Shown here: piece by piece, positions 21,451-30,666 of the stretch
Layout of the letters: the number at the start of each line of letters is the position of its first letter
How positions within the stretch are numbered: the first letter of the stretch is position 1
From: Aeoliella mucimassa
GTDB lineage: Bacteria > Planctomycetota > Planctomycetia > Pirellulales > Lacipirellulaceae
Reading direction: 5' to 3'
Length of the DNA: 64,000 nucleotides
Assembly: GCF_007748035.1 (NCBI RefSeq)
Contig: NZ_CP036278.1
Coordinates: 5,208,001 to 5,272,000 of the forward strand
Notes under the pieces: model-generated
Databases searched by the model: none
What the model was told of the DNA's origin: nothing
Seen by the model: only the letters and a program-made list of their open reading frames with translations
Program-made: the position numbers and the translations under genes

Positions 21451-21747
21451 TTAATCCTTCTTCGAACTCTTCTTTTTGGTCGAGCTATCCGACTTCGCCT
21501 TGGTTTCCGATTTGGTGCTCGACTCCGACTTTTTGTCGTTCGCGGCGGCCTTTTTGTAGGAGTCGCTGCGGTAGTCGGTTTCGTAAAACCCCGAACCCTT
21601 GAACATCACCGCAGCTCCGGTGCCGAACAACCGGCGGAGCTTCAACTTGCCGCACTCCGGGCACTTGCGTTTGACCGGCTCGGAGATCGACTGGAACAGC
21701 TCGAACTCATGATCGCACGCATCACACTGATAGTCGTAGGTAGGCAT
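21451..21747 (-). CDS. FmdB-family zinc ribbon protein
   Basis: 98 aa. The N-terminus MPTYDYQCDACDHEFE with CPECG 20 residues later forms the FmdB-type zinc ribbon (CX2C...CX2C). The C-terminal 35 residues are a Lys/Ser-rich tail (KSESSTKSETKAKS and so on) likely to be disordered. Family function is unclear; it was first noted as a putative regulator of formamidase genes. It sits between grpE and yacG, 93 bases after grpE. Confidence 0.88.
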   Translation of the reverse strand: MPTYDYQCDACDHEFELFQSISEPVKRKCPECGKLKLRRLFGTGAAVMFKGSGFYETDYRSDSYKKAAANDKKSESSTKSETKAKSDSSTKKKSSKKD

Positions 21748-21840
21748 CTTTCACTTCTCACCAACCAGAATAAATATCGCGCAGAGTCGCTGAGACGACT
21801 CACGGAACTCAAACGTCTCTACGAGACACTCCAATTGTCG

Positions 21841-22416
21841 CTAAGCGGTGGCCTCGTCGCCAGCCGAATCGTTCTCGGCAATGTTGCCAATCTCGCCAGG
21901 ACCCGCGGAAACAATCACCTGAGCGGCCCGCACCACGCGGTCGTGCAACTGATAGCCCGCTTGCGTGACCATCATGATCACCCCAGCAGGCACTTCGGGC
22001 GAAGGCTGCTGCAGGATGGCCTGGTGGTAATCGGGATCAAACACTTCGCCTTCGGCGGCAATCTGCTTGCAGTTGTGCTGATCGAGGGCGGTCAGCAGCT
22101 GCTGGCGGACCAGTTTAAAACCTTCGAGCAGGCTGGCCACTTCGGCTCCTTCGCCGGCGGCTTCGATCGCCCGATCCACGTTGTCGAGCACCGGCAGAAT
22201 ATCGCGCATCAATTCGATACCAGCGTACTTGCGAGCATCGGCCAGTTCCCGCGCCTGGCGAGCACGCAGGTTCTGGAGTTCGGCCTGCAAACGTAGCGAA
22301 CGATCCTTCTCGGTAGCCAATTCGGCCTCGAGTTCTTCGGTATCGACTTCGGGCTGGTTTTCCAACTCCTGCGATTCGTCCATCGCTTCGTCAACCAGTT
22401 CTTCTTCGTTGGCCAT
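21841..22416 (-). CDS. grpE: GrpE, nucleotide exchange factor of DnaK
   Basis: 191 aa. Acidic N-terminus, long coiled coil (about 25-75, EELEAELATEKDRSLRLQAE), then the GrpE core with RDILPVLDNVDRAIEAA, FDPDYHQAI and the signature GYQLHDRVVRAAQVIVS. It releases ADP from DnaK and works with DnaJ, whose gene ends 6 bases upstream. No dnaK is in the window, so the DnaK partner must be encoded elsewhere. Confidence 0.95.
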   Translation of the reverse strand: MANEEELVDEAMDESQELENQPEVDTEELEAELATEKDRSLRLQAELQNLRARQARELADARKYAGIELMRDILPVLDNVDRAIEAAGEGAEVASLLEGFKLVRQQLLTALDQHNCKQIAAEGEVFDPDYHQAILQQPSPEVPAGVIMMVTQAGYQLHDRVVRAAQVIVSAGPGEIGNIAENDSAGDEATA

Positions 22417-22422
22417 CTTCGC

Positions 22423-23559
22423 TTATGCCTCCTCGCCATCAGAATCGTTGGCGGTAAAGTAATCAGTCAATTGTTTGAAAAACGACTTCCGCTGCGGAGC
22501 CACGTTCGTGTGTTCCAGTTCAGCCAGCTCGCGTAGCAGTTTGTCTTCGTCTTTGGATAGTTTGGTCGGTACTTCGATGCTCACCTGCACCAGCAGATCG
22601 CCGACGCTGTGCGACCGCGGGTCGGGCATGCCTCGGCCGCTCATGCGAAACACCTCGCCCGACTGGGTGCCGGCCGGTACTTTTACTTCGCCCCGCCCGG
22701 CGAGGGTCGGCACCTCGAGCGTGCAACCGAGCGCTGCTTGGGGATAGGTAATCGGCACGCGGCAAATCAGGTGAGGGCCTTGTCGCTCGAACAGCGGGTG
22801 GCTCAGCACCGAAATAAAACAGTAGCAATCACCGGGAGGTCCGCCGTTGGGGCTTGGCTCTCCTTCGCCGGTGATTCGGACCCGCATGCCATCGTCGACA
22901 CCAGCGGGGATTTTGACCTCGATCGCCACGGTGCGGAGTCGCTGCCCTTTGCCGCGACAGGTGCGGCAAGGGTCCTTCACCTTCGAGCCTTCGCCGCCGC
23001 AGGCGGGGCACGTGGTTTGTACGCGGACGATGCCAGCCGATTGAATCACCCGACCGTGGCCGCCGCAGTAGCTGCAGACCTCGCGGGCGCTGCCAGCGGT
23101 GGCTCCGGTGCCGTTGCAATCGTCGCAGTTTTCGTGTCGTTGAAACTCGACTTCTTTGGTGCAACCCTCGGCTGCTTCGTGCAGGGTGAGCGTTACGTCG
23201 CAGCGAACATCGCGTCCCGCGCGGGCGCGTCGCCCTCCTCCGCCGCCACCGAAGATGTCGCCAAAGATGTCGCCGAACGCGCTGAAGATGTCGCCGACGT
23301 CGTGGAAATGACCTCCACCACCCCCAGCACCATTCACGCCTGCGTGGCCGTACTGGTCGTAGCGCGCACGCTTCTGCGAATCGTGCAGTACCTCGAAGGC
23401 TTCACTGCACTCTTTGAAGCGTTCAATCGCTTCCTCGTCGCCGGGGTTCTTATCGGGATGGTACTTGATTGCCAGCTTGCGATAAGCGGTGGCAATGTCA
23501 CCCTCCGACGCAGAACGCTCGACGCCGAGAACTTCGTAATAACAACGTTGTGTAGGCAT
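22423..23559 (-). CDS. dnaJ: DnaJ co-chaperone
   Basis: 378 aa, full length. J domain at residues 1-70 with the HPD motif (YHPDKNPG), Gly-rich linker ([14 protein letters not shown] ... [10 protein letters not shown]), four CXXCXGXG zinc motifs ([24 protein letters not shown] and the variant CRTCRGKG) and two C-terminal substrate-binding domains. It stimulates the DnaK ATPase and delivers substrates. It lies 134 bases after groEL1 and 6 bases before grpE. Confidence 0.97.
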
Positions 23560-23693
23560 GAATAGCTATTGGCTTTGGGCTGTAAGCTATAGGCTAGCGA
23601 CTCATTCAAACCGCCAGTCTGTCTCAAAACACCGGGCCACTCGCGAACATGCACGAGTGGCCCGATGCAAGCGTTTTTCTCACTCAGCGACCA

Positions 23694-25313
23694 CTAGCGA
23701 ATCGAACCAACGACAGCCTTCTTGTCGTCGTCCTTCGAATCGTAGTTGGTCACGAGAGCCTCGGTGGTGAGGATCAGACCAGCAATGCTGGAAGCGTTCG
23801 TCAGCGCGGTCTTCACAACCTTGGCTGGGTCGATAACACCTGCCTTGAGCATGTCGACGTACTCACCAGCGTTGGCGTCGTAACCTTGGTTGAACGGCTT
23901 CTGCGAGACTTCGTCGGCTACGACGCTACCGGCCAGACCACCGTTGTCGGCAATCTGACGCAGCGGAGCATCCAACACGCCGAGCACGATGGAAACGCCG
24001 ATTTTCTCGTCGCCCTTGGCACCGCTACGAGCAGCTTCTACCGCTTCGCGACACCGCAGCAACGCCACACCACCACCAGGCAGAATGCCTTCTTCCACCG
24101 CTGCACGAGTTGCGTGCAGCGCGTCTTCGACGCGAGCCTTCTTTTGCTTCATGTCGGCTTCGCTGTTGGCACCCACCGACACGATGGCAACGCCACCGGT
24201 GAGCTTGGCCAGACGCTCTTGCAGCTTTTCGCGATCGTAGTCGCTGGTGCTGTTCTCGATGCTCTTGCGGATCTGATCGATTCGCTTTTGCACGTCGGAG
24301 GTCGCCCCACCACCTTGCACGATGGTGGTCGAGTCCTTGTTGATGGTGATCTTCTTGGCCCGGCCGAGCTCTTCGAGCGTGACAGCCTCGAGCTTCTTGC
24401 CAAGGTCTTCGGAGATCAGGGTGCCGCCGGTTAGGGTGGCAATATCGCCGAGCATCGCCTTACGACGATCGCCGAATCCAGGAGCCTTTACCGCGGCAAC
24501 GTTCAGGATGCCACGCAGCTTGTTCACCACCAACGCGGCCAAGGCTTCGCCTTCCACGTCTTCGGCGATGATCACGAGGGCTTTGCCCTTCTGGCTCACC
24601 TGCTCGAGAATCGGCAGCAACTCACGAAGATTGCTGACCTTCTTCTCGTGAATCAGGATGTAAGCGTCTTCCAGAGCACATTCCATGGTGGAAGGCTCGT
24701 TGATGAAGTAAGGCGACAGGTAACCCTTGTCGAACTGCATACCTTCGACGAACTCGAGGGTGGTTTCAGTCGACTTGCCTTCTTCCACGGTGATGACGCC
24801 GTCTTTGCCAACCTTTTCCATCGCGTCGGCCAACAGGTCGCCGATCACGCGGTCGTTGTTCGCACTGATGGCACCCACCTGGGCGATTTCCTCTTTGCTC
24901 GAAACCTTCTTGCTCTTCGAGTCGAGGAACTCGCAAGCAGCAGCGACACCCTTTTCGATGCCACGACGCACGGCGGTTGGATTGCTACCAGCAACGATGT
25001 TGCGGGCACCTTCCTTCAGGATGGCGCGGGCTAGCACCGTAGCGGTGGTGGTACCGTCGCCAGCGAGCGAGGAGGTTTTGTCGGCCACTTCGTGCACGAG
25101 CTTGGCGCCCATGTTTTCGAAGGGGTCTTCGAGTTCCACTTCCTTGCTGACGGTGACGCCGTCTTTGGTCACGGTAGGACCGCCGAACGACTTGTTGATG
25201 ATAACGTTACGACCGGTGGGGCCCATGGTTACAGCCACGGCATCGGCCAGTTTGTCGACACCCTTGAGCATCTTGGCTCGTGCGGCATCGTCGAACATGA
25301 GTTGTTTAGCCAC
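23694..25313 (-). CDS. groEL: GroEL chaperonin, paralogue 1
   Basis: 539 aa. Conserved ATP-site segments are present ([22 protein letters not shown] written here as [13 protein letters not shown], and [13 protein letters not shown]). The C-terminus ends in a charged tail ([14 protein letters not shown]) with no Gly-Gly-Met repeats, unlike paralogue 2. It follows groES by 88 bases. Together with GroES it should form the folding chamber; the absence of the GGM tail, which lines the cavity floor in E. coli, suggests it is functionally distinct from paralogue 2. Confidence 0.96.
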
Positions 25314-25401
25314 GATTGAGTCCTTTGCAGGTTTAAATTCGGTGAGTTGTGCGGAACGTTACAGGTTACAGACGCAAGTGGTGCGTCGGGCGGGTTTGCC
25401 C

Positions 25402-25701
25402 CTAGGCGGTAACCTTGGCGAGGATGTCGCTCTCACGCAGGATCTTGTATTCCTGGCCGTTTACTTCGACTTCCGATCCGCCGTACTTGCCGTAAATCAC
25501 TTCGTCGCCAACGGCCACGGAGAGCTCACCACGGTTGCCGCTGTCCATGAGCTTGCCAACGCCGACAGCTACGACTTTGCCACGCTGCGGCTTTTCGCGA
25601 GCGGCATCCGGCAGCACGATACCGCCAGCGGTCATCTCTTCGGCTTCCATGGGTTGCACCACCACACGATCGTCCAGGGGACGCAGATTGATCTTTGCCA
25701 T
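25402..25701 (-). CDS. groES: GroES co-chaperonin
   Basis: 99 aa. N-terminal [14 protein letters not shown], mobile loop around residues 18-33 ([14 protein letters not shown], with the hydrophobic IVLP tripeptide that docks on GroEL), and the C-terminal strand [13 protein letters not shown]. It stands between two GroEL genes and is the only GroES in the window, so it may serve both. Confidence 0.97.
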
Positions 25702-25782
25702 GATTTGTATTTCCAGATTGGTTTATATGTTGTTTGTATTTGTAAGGTCGAAAGGATCGCAGTTAGGTAGCCAGCGGCTGGC

Positions 25783-27483
25783 TTACATCATGCCGGGCAT
25801 GCCACCCATGCCGCCCATGCCACCCATGCCACCCATGCCGGGCATTCCTCCCATGCCACCCATACCGTGATCATGGTGATCGTGTCCGCCTTCTTCCTCT
25901 TCCGAAGGAATCTCGGTCACGAGCGAATCGGTGGTGAGCAGCAGCGAAGCGACGCTGGCTGCATTTTGCAGAGCGGTGCGAACCACGCGAGCGGGGTCGA
26001 TCACGCCAGCAGCGACCAGATCGGTGTACTCGTCCTTATCGGCGTTATACCCTTCGGTCTTACCCTTCAGGCGACGCACGCGGTTGACGACCACGGCGCC
26101 GTCGACACCGGCGTTCTCGGCAATGTAACGCAGCGGGTATTCGAGCACGGCCTTCACGATGGCAACACCGAGTTGCTCGTCGCCTTCGAGCTTGAGCTTG
26201 TCGAGGGCCTTCTCGCTACGCAGCAAAGCAACACCGCCACCGGGGACAATGCCTTCCTGCAGCGCGGCGTGCGTAGCAGCACGAGCGTCGTCGAACAGCG
26301 CCTTGCGCTCTTTCATTTCGCTTTCGGTCGCAGCACCACACTTGATTTCGGCCACACCGCCGGCCAGCTTGGCCAGACGCTCTTGCAGCTTCTCGCGATC
26401 GTAATCGCTGTCGGTGGTGTTGATTTCGTTGCGGATCTGATCGGCACGGCCAGCAATGGCGTCCTTCTTGCCAGCACCACCGACGATGGTGGTGTTGTCG
26501 CCAGTGATGATCACCTTCTTGGCCTTACCAAGATCGGTGACCTGCACCGCGTCGAGCTTGATACCGAGGTCCTTGAAGATGGCGTTCGCACCAGTCAACG
26601 TGGCAATGTCGCCAAGCATGGCCTTGCGGCGATCGCCGTAGCCAGGAGCTTTGACCGCACAAACGTTGACGATACCCCGCATCTTGTTCACCACCAACGT
26701 GGCCAAGGCTTCGCCATCCACGTCTTCGGCGATGATCAACAACGGCTTGCCCGCCTTCGAAATGGCTTCGAGCAACGGCACCATGTTCTTGGCGTTCGAA
26801 ATCTTCTCTTCGAACACCAGGATGTGGCAGTTATCGAGCTCCGCCGACATCTCGTCTTCGTTCGTCACGAAGTGAGGCGACAGATAACCGCGATCGAACT
26901 GCATGCCTTCGACCACTTCGACGGTGGTCTCGTTGCCGCGACCTTCGTCGACGGTGATCACACCGTTCTTGCCAACCTTGCTGAACGCGTCGGCCAGCAC
27001 CGAACCGATCGTGGGATCGTTGTTACCAGCGATCGTGGCGATTTGCTGCAGACGCTTCTTGTCTTTCACGTCGATGGGGTCGGCCATCTTGGCAATCGAG
27101 TCTTGAACCGCTTCGACCGCCTTGGCAATGCCGCGGCTCAGGGCCATGGCGTCGGCACCAGCGGCAATCATCTTCAGACCTTCGCGGAAGATGCCTTCGG
27201 CCAGCACGGTCGCGGTGGTGGTTCCGTCGCCAGCGACGTCGTTGGTCTTGCTGGCGGCTTCCTTCACCAATTGGGCACCGAGGTTTTCGTAGGGATCATC
27301 GAGTTCGATGTCCTCGGCAACGGTCACGCCGTCTTTGGTCACCTTGGGCGAACCCCAGCCCTTGTCGAGCACCGCGTTGCGGCCGCGTGGACCAAGCGTG
27401 CTACGGACGGCTCGAGCCAGCTTCGCGACACCCTCAGCGAGGGGACGGCGGGCTTCGTCGTCAAATACCATTTGTTTAGCCAC
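25783..27483 (-). CDS. groEL: GroEL chaperonin, paralogue 2, with His- and GGM-rich tail
   Basis: 566 aa from a GTG at 27483 preceded by AAGGAG (27493-27498). ATP-site segments are conserved ([41 protein letters not shown]). The tail contains GGHDHHDHG and then seven or so GGM/GMG units ending in MPGMM. The extended frame beginning at 27684 would add 67 residues without chaperonin character. As first gene of the cluster it is directly behind the sigma-54-type promoter at 27662. Confidence 0.95.
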
Positions 27484-27661
27484 TGTCGAAACTCCTTTGT
27501 TTGCAGTTGTCGGTAGACAGTTGTAAGTCGTGTTTGGGTCGGTGGTTTGCGGCCGCCCCCCACCTGAGGGAGGTCGCTGCCGCGCTCTATCGCACTGAAC
27601 CAGCGGGCAAAAATGCCGCTGGAATGATTTGGCAGACCGTAGGCCTAGTGTCCCCCATGTA

Positions 27662-27678
27662 TGCAAGCAGCGTGCCAG
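27662..27678 (-). promoter_or_regulatory. sigma-54 (-24/-12) promoter of the chaperone cluster
   Basis: On the minus strand the bases read CTGGCACGCTGCTTGCA: TGGCACG, four bases, TTGCA, a full match to the consensus of the RpoN promoter including the GG/GC spacing. Transcription would start near 27652, about 170 nt before the groEL2 GTG. Upstream lie several TGCCA/TGGCA sites, including a 13-bp palindrome at 27751-27763, in the position expected for enhancer-binding protein sites. Confidence 0.7.
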
Positions 27679-27750
27679 AGCCAAGAAACGCGATAGATGC
27701 CGAGAAATAGCCCGATTCCAGCCACCCCGCCCTGAGCTGGCGAGTTACGA

Positions 27751-27827
27751 ATGCCAATTTGGCAGAAGCCAATCCTCACAGTTTGCCACCGACTGCCATG
27801 GTTCTGACAACTCTGGCAGTCTGGCAG
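27751..27827. promoter_or_regulatory. cluster of TGCCA/TGGCA sites, possible activator sites
   Basis: A perfect palindrome TGCCAATTTGGCA (27751-27763, about 105 bases before the predicted sigma-54 start) and further half-sites at 27784, 27793 and, as a tandem TCTGGCAG pair, 27812-27827. Spacing and distance suit binding of a sigma-54 activator. No activator gene is in the window. Confidence 0.4.
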
Positions 27828-27846
27828 GTGGGACCTCGGGCTGCAG

Positions 27847-30666
27847 CTATTGAGCAAGGTCCTCAAGCCATCCCTGGACCAGCTCCACCTTGTGCGGCAT
27901 GCCGATTTCGCTAAACAGGGCTAGAGATTTGCGGTACAGCTCCTCAGCCCGCCCCAAATCGCCGCGAATCTTATAGAGATTCCCGAGGTTGCCGCATTGA
28001 CTCGCTATCCCCTCCTTGCGACCTAGCTTCACTTCAATCCTGAGTGACTTTTTGTACATCTCTTCGGCTCGTCCCAAGTCGCCGCGAGTCAGATACAGAA
28101 TCCCCAGGTTGCCATAGTCACTCGCCATCCCCTCCTTACGGCCTAGCTCCTCATTGATATCGAGCGACTTTTGGTACATCTCTTTAGCCCGCCCCAAGTC
28201 GCCGCGAGTCCGAGAGAGATGCCCCAGGTTGCCGTACTGAATCGCCATCCCCTCCTTGCGGCCTAGCTCCTCATTGATATCGAGCGACTTTTGGTACATC
28301 TCTTCGGCTCGCCCCAAGTCACCGCAAGTCCGACAAAGATTCCCCAGGTTGCCGTACTGAATCGCTATCCCCTCCTTGCGGCCTAGCTCCTCATTGATAT
28401 CGAGCGACTTTTGGTACATTTCTTCGGCTCGCCCCAAGTCACCGCGAGTCAGACAGAGATCCCCCAGGTTGCCGTACTGAATTGCCATCCCCTCCTTATT
28501 ACCTATAGCCTCATTAATATCGAGCGATTTTTGGTGCATTTCTTCGGCCCGCCCCAAGTCGCCGCGTGTCTTATAGAGAATCCCCAGGTTGCCATAGACA
28601 ATCGCCATCCCCTCCTTACGACCTAACTTCACGTTGATACCGAGCGATTTTTGGTACATTTCTTCGGCCCGCCCCAGGTCGCCGCGAGTCTTATAGAGAA
28701 TCCCCAGGTTGCTATACTGATTCGCCATCCCCTCCTTGCGGCCTAGCTCCTCTTCAATCTTGAGCGACCTCAGGTACATCTCTTCGGCCCGCCCCAGGTC
28801 GCCGCGAGTCCGACAGAGATTCCCCAGATTGCCATAGGCACTCGCCATCCCCACCTTGCGGCCTAGCTCCTCATCAATCTCGAGCGATTTCTGGTACATC
28901 TCTTCGGCCCGCCCCAAGTCGCCGCGAGTCCCGTAGAGAATCCCCAGGTTGACGTAGGCACTCGCCACTCCCTCCTTGCAGCCTAGTTCCTCTCCAATCT
29001 CGAGCGACTTCAGGTACATCGCTTCGGCCTGCCCCAAGTCGCCGCGAGTCAGATTGAGGTTCCCCAGACAGCCATAGGCACTCACCATCCCCTCCTTACA
29101 ACCTAGCTCCTCGTTATTATCGAGTGCCTTCTGGTACATCACTTCGGCGTGCCCCAAGTCACCGCGAGTCAGATAGAGATTCCCCAAGTTGCCATAGGCA
29201 GTAGCAAGTATTTGTGCGTCCCCTGCTGCCAGGGCTTCCACCTGTTGGTACAGACATTCTGCTTCGTTTAAGTCTCCTTGCAGACTACGGATGAGGCCTA
29301 AGCGATTGAGGGCATCCAGGTCGCTCGGTAACTGATTGAGAATAAGGCGAATCCGACGCTCGGCTTCTTTAATATCCCCTCGCAAGTAAGCTATGGCGGC
29401 GATTTCGCGGTGGAGCTCCAATACCTCCTGCTGGGTCCTTTCTGCTTGCTCCGTTTTCTCGTCGCACATCGCCATCAGGGCGGCTTGCACCTGGGCCGGG
29501 TCTTTCGAGGCCAAGGCTTCGTCGGCACGTTGGTTACCGTGCTCGGCATCGGCAGCTAGTCTTTCAAGGCCAGCTTTGGCCTCTTCCAGCTCTCTTCGCA
29601 GGTTCTCGTTTTCGGTACGAAGCTGTTCGTCGGAATCGCGCTGTCTGCTGTCTTCTCGGAGTAGCCTCAGAATCTCTTGCTGGTTGGCTAGCGACTCCGC
29701 CCGATGGTCGCGGGCCTCTTCGCGAGCGGCACTTGTCGTTTCTACAACCACCTCCAGACTCATGGCTAGCGAGTCAAGCTTGGTCCCAACGTCCTGCGAA
29801 ACAGTGGCCAGTGTCGACAGCAGCTCGGTATGCTTTTCCGCTCCTTCCGCATCCAGGTGCTGGCGAAACTGCTCGACTTGCCCTTGAATGACCTCTCGCA
29901 AGGCTCGGGCACTTTTCACTTGGTGCTTTTTTAGCTCTTTGGTTTCGCCATCGCGTTCGGCATGGTCTGGCAGTCGCTGCAAAATCTCCGCCAGCAACGT
30001 CATCTGCAAGGCGGCGTACGCTTTGCCACCCCCGGGACCTTTGCCTGTAGCGTCCTCTTTTAGCAATTCCCATACGGCTTGAGCAAATCGCTGGTGAAGC
30101 CACCCGCCGGCTGCCTTGGCTGCTGCTGGCGTGAGTTTCCAGCTATTTAGGCGGGCATGCACGGCCACCATCTCCTGCCACGTTTCGGGCTCCAGTGCCG
30201 TAGCCTGGGCGATGCCGGCCTGGGTGATATTGGCCTCGCCCACAATGACTTTCGTCAGCTGTTCCCCCTGCACAGGGGCAACGTCGTCCTGCCACTCGGG
30301 CATGGTGGTTAGCTCTTCCCACCGCTTTTCAATCGCTTTACCCACTTTGCGAAGCGTCTTGGCATCAGCCGCCGCTACTCCCGACGATTTGTCGCTGGCC
30401 ACAGCCTCCAGGCAAGTCCGCACCGCATTGCCCGAGAGCTTGGTGAGGTCGTGGTTCTTGAACAGTTCACCTGGCTTTGCCGACCGACTGAGCAGCGAAG
30501 TCTGAATATCATTGGCTAGAACGTTTGACGCCAAACCGGCAACTGGTGCCGCCAACGAACCAGCAGCCCCTACGGGGGCAAACGCGGCAATGGCAGCCCC
30601 CCCAGCAACCAAACCGGTGCAGGTGAGGACTCGCGTCGTGGTGTGGGTGAGGTCGAAACCAGCCAT
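27847..30666 (-). CDS. large TPR protein with hydrophobic N-terminus and coiled coil
   Basis: 939 aa. Residues 14-52 form a Gly/Ala-rich hydrophobic stretch able to make one or two membrane helices; next comes a helical domain containing the phrase ELFKNHDLTKLSGNAVRTCL (about 67-86); about 255-400 is charged coiled coil; about 420-489 holds two divergent TPRs; 490-929 is eleven 40-residue TPR units (consensus GNLGNLYRTRGDLGRAEEMY). No nucleotide-binding or nuclease motif was seen. TPR arrays bind peptides or proteins. It is encoded just upstream of and on the same strand as the chaperone cluster. Function unknown; a stress or conflict sensor is a guess from architecture only. Confidence 0.82.
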   Translation of the reverse strand: MAGFDLTHTTTRVLTCTGLVAGGAAIAAFAPVGAAGSLAAPVAGLASNVLANDIQTSLLSRSAKPGELFKNHDLTKLSGNAVRTCLEAVASDKSSGVAAADAKTLRKVGKAIEKRWEELTTMPEWQDDVAPVQGEQLTKVIVGEANITQAGIAQATALEPETWQEMVAVHARLNSWKLTPAAAKAAGGWLHQRFAQAVWELLKEDATGKGPGGGKAYAALQMTLLAEILQRLPDHAERDGETKELKKHQVKSARALREVIQGQVEQFRQHLDAEGAEKHTELLSTLATVSQDVGTKLDSLAMSLEVVVETTSAAREEARDHRAESLANQQEILRLLREDSRQRDSDEQLRTENENLRRELEEAKAGLERLAADAEHGNQRADEALASKDPAQVQAALMAMCDEKTEQAERTQQEVLELHREIAAIAYLRGDIKEAERRIRLILNQLPSDLDALNRLGLIRSLQGDLNEAECLYQQVEALAAGDAQILATAYGNLGNLYLTRGDLGHAEVMYQKALDNNEELGCKEGMVSAYGCLGNLNLTRGDLGQAEAMYLKSLEIGEELGCKEGVASAYVNLGILYGTRGDLGRAEEMYQKSLEIDEELGRKVGMASAYGNLGNLCRTRGDLGRAEEMYLRSLKIEEELGRKEGMANQYSNLGILYKTRGDLGRAEEMYQKSLGINVKLGRKEGMAIVYGNLGILYKTRGDLGRAEEMHQKSLDINEAIGNKEGMAIQYGNLGDLCLTRGDLGRAEEMYQKSLDINEELGRKEGIAIQYGNLGNLCRTCGDLGRAEEMYQKSLDINEELGRKEGMAIQYGNLGHLSRTRGDLGRAKEMYQKSLDINEELGRKEGMASDYGNLGILYLTRGDLGRAEEMYKKSLRIEVKLGRKEGIASQCGNLGNLYKIRGDLGRAEELYRKSLALFSEIGMPHKVELVQGWLEDLAQ
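27880..29199. repeat. eleven tandem 120-bp repeats encoding TPR units
   Basis: The unit of 120 bp recurs in exact register; the middle units differ by only a few bases (for example CTCCTCATTGATATCGAGCG appears unchanged in several). The end units are more diverged. Such identity marks recent expansion or ongoing homogenisation by recombination. Confidence 0.95.

Follow-up and report, generated by a model that had tools for sequence, protein, structure and literature searches.

A predicted sigma-54 promoter and a candidate two-component activator for the chaperone genes of Aeoliella mucimassa

Described systems of chaperone gene control

The control of bacterial chaperone genes is usually attributed to heat-shock sigma factors or to repressors, HrcA among them. 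The HrcA/CIRCE and sigma-32 systems have the same target genes as those discussed here, but they follow a repressor or an alternative sigma-70-family logic, and neither CIRCE in the window (the whole stretch of 64,000 nt that was analysed) nor HrcA in the genome was found in A. mucimassa. The groESL3 operon of Bradyrhizobium japonicum is co-regulated with nitrogen fixation through NifA. Like the locus described here, it is a chaperonin operon under an RpoN promoter (PMC4842269). It is, however, one among several groESL operons of that organism and not a general chaperone regulon.

Chlamydia belongs to the same superphylum as the planctomycetes. Its AtoS/AtoC system resembles our proposal in combining a kinase and an NtrC-type activator with a sigma-54 promoter at a chaperone operon, hrcA-grpE-dnaK, but differs in having a tandem sigma-66 promoter and repression by HrcA (PMC8762339). 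In Myxococcus xanthus, the kinase HsfB phosphorylates the NtrC-like regulator HsfA, which activates the heat-shock gene lonD (PMC9109919, citing Ueki and Inouye 2002). There the kinase is a hybrid kinase, and the targets cited there are lonD and secondary-metabolite genes, not groE, dnaK or hsp20.

Sigma-54 control of planctomycete chaperone genes is already predicted computationally. A position-specific matrix survey from 2025, which also covers Bacteroidota, found predicted sigma-54 promoters enriched at the GroEL, GroES, GrpE, DnaJ, DnaK and IbpA families in Planctomycetia, and less so in Phycisphaerae (PMC12316311). As far as the accessible part of that survey goes, the enrichment is given at class level, with no activator site, regulator or locus anatomy for the chaperone genes. 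Three things appear to be new within the open-licence literature searched, although earlier reports may be found outside it: the conserved activator site, the regulon shared by the chaperone genes, and the candidate kinase/regulator pair together with its position beside dnaK. Heat-induced genes of Rhodopirellula baltica include those for GroEL (RB8970), Cpn10 (RB8969), Cpn60 (RB8966), DnaJ (RB8972), GrpE (RB8974), DnaK and Hsp20 (PMC2754498). From the neighbouring locus tags, RB8966-RB8974 would be the same cluster as the groE cluster of A. mucimassa.

The groE locus and its predicted promoter

The genome of A. mucimassa is a single contig of 6.6 Mb, within which the window lies. By GroEL2, the closest named relative is Aeoliella straminimaris (94%), a planctomycete of the order Pirellulales. 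The features of the locus, in the direction of transcription, are as follows.

27847..30666, minus strand: gene for a 939-aa protein rich in near-identical TPR repeats, next to the groE promoter on its upstream side
27792..27820, no strand assigned: extra TGCCA/TGTCA/TGGCA half-sites, ACTGCCA-N15-TGGCAGT (by position only)
27752..27764, no strand assigned: putative upstream activator site (UAS), palindrome TGCCAAATTGGCA = TGYCA-N3-TGRCA (by conservation)
27662..27677, minus strand: predicted sigma-54 -24/-12 promoter box TGGCACGCTGCTTGCA (by consensus match and conservation)
27484..27651, minus strand: predicted 5' untranslated leader, 168 nt (from the position of the box)
25783..27483, minus strand: groEL2, chaperonin with a GGM-rich tail, first gene of the cluster (PF00118, NCBIfam GroEL)
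25402..25701, minus strand: groES (PF00166)
23694..25313, minus strand: groEL1, second GroEL of the cluster (PF00118)
about 23625..23663, minus strand: GC-rich hairpin with a T-rich tail in the groEL1/dnaJ gap (read from the sequence)
22423..23559, minus strand: dnaJ (PF00226, PF01556)
21841..22416, minus strand: grpE (PF01025)

An earlier note on this DNA had placed a near-perfect sigma-54 promoter about 170 bases upstream of groEL2, at the head of a groE-dnaJ-grpE cluster, with TGCCA/TGGCA repeats including a palindrome farther upstream. All of this was borne out. The minus-strand gene order is groEL2, groES, groEL1, dnaJ, grpE, all five genes were confirmed by Pfam, and the promoter sits inside the 363-nt gap between the TPR-protein gene and groEL2. 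The box TGGCACGCTGCTTGCA, at 27677..27662, is a perfect match on the coding strand (16/16 against TGGCACG-N4-TTGCW), with exact GG-N10-GC spacing, and lies 178 nt upstream of the GTG start codon of groEL2 (27483..27481). If the GG of the -24 element is placed at -25/-24, so that transcription starts 24 nt after it, the start would be at about 27651; as this is 168 nt before the start codon, the distance given in the note fits. Farther upstream, 87 nt from the start of the box, is the palindrome TGCCAAATTGGCA (27764..27752); this distance is within the range of about 80-200 nt expected of an upstream activator site. The further half-sites at 27792..27820 are possibly a weak secondary activator site.

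The hairpin between groEL1 and dnaJ is possibly a terminator or attenuator of the groE transcript ahead of dnaJ-grpE, so that these two genes may be only partly under the groEL2 promoter. The evidence for it is weak, since the terminator scan did not return it.

Other control elements were looked for as well. In agreement with the earlier note, no CIRCE inverted repeat was present in the window with up to three mismatches allowed, and since no hrcA gene was found in the genome either, an HrcA/CIRCE regulon was dropped as an explanation. The groEL2 leader had no Rfam match, and a structured or thermosensor leader was dropped on this ground.

The genome encodes one rpoN (a single Sigma54_DBD gene) and 18 strong Sigma54_activat matches, i.e. 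candidate enhancer-binding proteins. The window has no second perfect box; four matches have at most one mismatch, where 2.4 are expected. The whole genome has 11 perfect boxes; boxes with at most one mismatch number 90, compared to 77 for a reversed control pattern. These counts are scarcely above control, and the box alone was therefore dropped as evidence; its significance comes from its conservation.

In the family, a box precedes the start codon by 140-318 nt on the coding strand at 27 of 27 orthologous groEL2 loci, and nearly all of the remaining Pirellulales-type groEL2 loci have one too. Across 70 Pirellulales-type loci, a relaxed box was found 66 times in sense and three times in antisense orientation (mean of shuffles 0.12), and a strict box 61 times in sense and twice in antisense (0.02). 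The -24/-12 columns of these 70 loci carry about 2 bits, whereas the flanking columns mostly carry less than 0.35. Lack of the -24/-12 element in close relatives had been named in the note as a result that would count against the promoter; conservation on the correct strand was found instead, in the whole family sample and most of the order.

Exceptions are the Thermoguttaceae/rumen-type groEL2 loci and L111 (together L108-L111), in which the box is degenerate and a near-match to the UAS is kept. Two assemblies of the same genus (G003 and G004) lack groEL2, through loss or an assembly gap, and have only a groEL3-type chaperonin with a UAS and box of its own (L059, L060).

A conserved activator site and a candidate chaperone regulon

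The sequence TGYCA-N3-TGRCA, most commonly in the form TGCCAAAATGGCA, is conserved as a putative upstream activator site. Exact copies are present in 42 of the 70 orthologous loci (shuffles: mean 0.17, maximum 2), and copies within one mismatch in 58 of 66 anchored loci. The exact copies begin for the most part 87-124 nt ahead of the box; others form a second group, at 166-213 nt. The TGCCA palindrome, which the note had proposed to look for in related planctomycetes, was on this evidence kept as a candidate activator site.

The same layout of UAS and box was found in some planctomycetes outside the Pirellulales. A sample of 129 groEL upstream regions from 78 genomes of the phylum contained dozens of UAS and box pairs in many families, compared to none in the same regions when the UAS was reversed as a control. 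Two UAS about 40 nt apart are common.

In the genome of A. mucimassa there are 30 exact UAS copies, compared to 13 for the control. A UAS followed 80-140 nt on by a good box, on the strand of the gene, was found at groEL2 and at three further chaperone loci:

G000:C1:162063: groES-groEL3, UAS and box TGGCGCGCAGGTTGCA (GroES by Pfam)
4981422: dnaK, UAS and box CGGCATGCACTTTGCT (DnaK by Pfam)
5317813: hsp20, UAS and box TGGCATCGGAGTTGCT (Hsp20 by Pfam)

One more match, on the strand opposite the groES site, is probably spurious. The limits on score and distance were set after looking at the data, and the regulon is for that reason a strong lead and not a blind test. The scan was confined to exact UAS sites, so members such as clpB may be missed. 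For the remaining exact UAS copies (e.g. L165, L167, L170, L172, L174), no box was scored within the expected range of distances. At L173 (G000:C1:2512500-2519500), two exact UAS copies lie between a divergent pair of perfect sigma-54 boxes, which are about 1.2 kb apart and precede genes that do not look like chaperones. The note had suggested that under RpoN control the stress response would follow a different logic; the recurrence of box and UAS at dnaK, hsp20 and a second groES-groEL operon strengthens this idea.

We give a probability of about 0.77 to the reading that the groE promoter is a sigma-54 promoter within a regulon of groE, groES-groEL3, dnaK and hsp20, driven by a kinase and the response regulator L186 and without sigma-32 or HrcA/CIRCE. 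It draws on what can be read from the DNA: the box, the putative activator site and their conservation, the shared candidate regulon, and the conservation of the regulator with its frequent dnaK adjacency. According to this reading, the groE cluster would be transcribed by RNA polymerase with sigma-54 (RpoN). The kinase would phosphorylate the regulator, whose ATPase ring would then form and reach the polymerase by DNA looping, opening the promoter. The same regulator would control groES-groEL3, dnaK and hsp20 as one protein-folding-stress regulon, and this heat-shock regulon would use neither sigma-32 nor HrcA/CIRCE.

The candidate activator and the alternatives

L186 (P0001) is an NtrC-type response regulator, with a receiver domain (PF00072), a Sigma54_activat domain (PF00158) and a Fis-type HTH (PF02954). 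It is not NtrC proper, scoring 410.5 bits against the NCBIfam ntrC model (cut-off 558.6), and it is below the NCBIfam cut-offs of the AtoC, ZraR and NtrX models too. The candidates were narrowed by comparing genomes that have few activators and keep the groE signals. Four such genomes within the order (G030, G070, G075, G077; 6-7 activators each) have L186, L183 and L181 in common. Outside the order, G082, G083, G084 and G085 have a clear full-length best orthologue of L186 only (50-53% identity, 431-463 bits), other activators scoring lower. L186 is thereby the only one of the 18 activators with full-length best orthologues in all eight genomes. G075 was counted as activator-poor although no box was recognised at its expected place, and the exclusion of rivals therefore comes mainly from G082, G083 and G085.

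L186 keeps the Walker A motif and a GAFTGA-type loop, and its recognition helix, GERTLYRK, hardly varies across the phylum. In the Pirellulales, the loop that contacts sigma-54 is GAFTDA; in the other orthologues where it was read, it is GAFTGA. This counts against L186, although a NorR with the equivalent change, G266D, activates transcription (PMC2941729).

Directly upstream of L186 in A. mucimassa is the gene for a HisKA/HATPase kinase that lacks any transmembrane-like stretch. The order there is pnp-kinase-regulator-mutL, and L186 is not beside a chaperone gene, a point against the reading. In 24 of 53 sampled genomes of the phylum, dnaK is the next gene after the regulator and has the same orientation; this holds for none of the out-of-clade best matches. 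Of these regulator-adjacent dnaK leaders, 14 of 24 carry a UAS (at most one mismatch) and a box (mean of shuffles 0.005). Within the phylum sample, the association of the regulator clade with a strict groE UAS and box pair is in the expected direction and not significant (27/53 vs 4/14, p = 0.23), which weakens the case for L186. We infer that L186 binds the UAS, that the adjoining kinase phosphorylates it, and that heat or unfolded protein is the signal.

The idea that the activator regulates its own gene by way of the UAS was considered and dropped, as none of the 18 activator genes is preceded by a convincing site. The single match with one mismatch, at L186, is probably due to chance, since it overlaps the L186 start codon.

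A wider reading has, in our view, slightly better than even odds. The main heat-shock response of Planctomycetota would run through a single two-component system of ancestral origin. Its soluble kinase and its NtrC-type activator, in many cases encoded immediately ahead of dnaK, would act on sigma-54 promoters of groE, dnaK and hsp20 via TGYCA-N3-TGRCA sites, which commonly come in pairs with a distance of about 40 nt. Feedback is conceivable: DnaK, made beside the kinase, could restrain it when free chaperone is plentiful.

Promoter and UAS could also be real and another activator bind, be it L183 (receiver-type), L181 (FHA-GAF), L184 (receiver-less) or a diverged cousin. L183 and L181, too, occur in each of the four activator-poor genomes of the order, L184 occurs in three of these, and G112, G115, G096 and G132 have UAS and box pairs with no recognised L186 orthologue, perhaps due to divergence or incomplete assemblies. 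Yet outside the order, G082, G083 and G085 have a clear full-length orthologue of L186 and none of L183, L181 or L184, and none of these three activators was seen adjoining dnaK in flanks that were scanned less widely than those of L186; we consider this alternative unlikely.

It is similarly improbable that the sigma-54 promoter serves growth-phase, nitrogen or development signals and that heat induction uses another promoter, of sigma-70 type or sigma-32-like. Planctomycetes encode many sigma factors, and the chlamydial hrcA-grpE-dnaK operon has its sigma-66 and sigma-54 promoters in tandem (PMC8762339). R. baltica is reported to have rpoH, and its rpoN mRNA is not induced by heat (PMC2754498), which fits control at the level of the activator as well and neither proves nor excludes it. 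Against a second promoter, a scan with the sigma-70 consensus (one promoter type) found no match in 21700..27900, and the UAS and box regulon that was found consists of chaperone genes. That box and palindrome are chance or inherited sequence with no function is very improbable: one-mismatch boxes are scarcely above control in the own genome, but the box columns are nearly invariant between almost unconstrained flanks, antisense and shuffled sequences give almost none, and the reversed control gave no pairs.

If the preferred reading of a kinase/L186-driven sigma-54 regulon is true, the phylum would have a sigma-54 chaperone regulon with a two-component activator, i.e. ATP-dependent activation with little leak expected when the activator is absent. 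L186, a widely conserved and so far unnamed response regulator, would have a proposed function, and with a named regulator, a DNA site and a gene set, the sensing of protein damage in planctomycetes would become directly testable.
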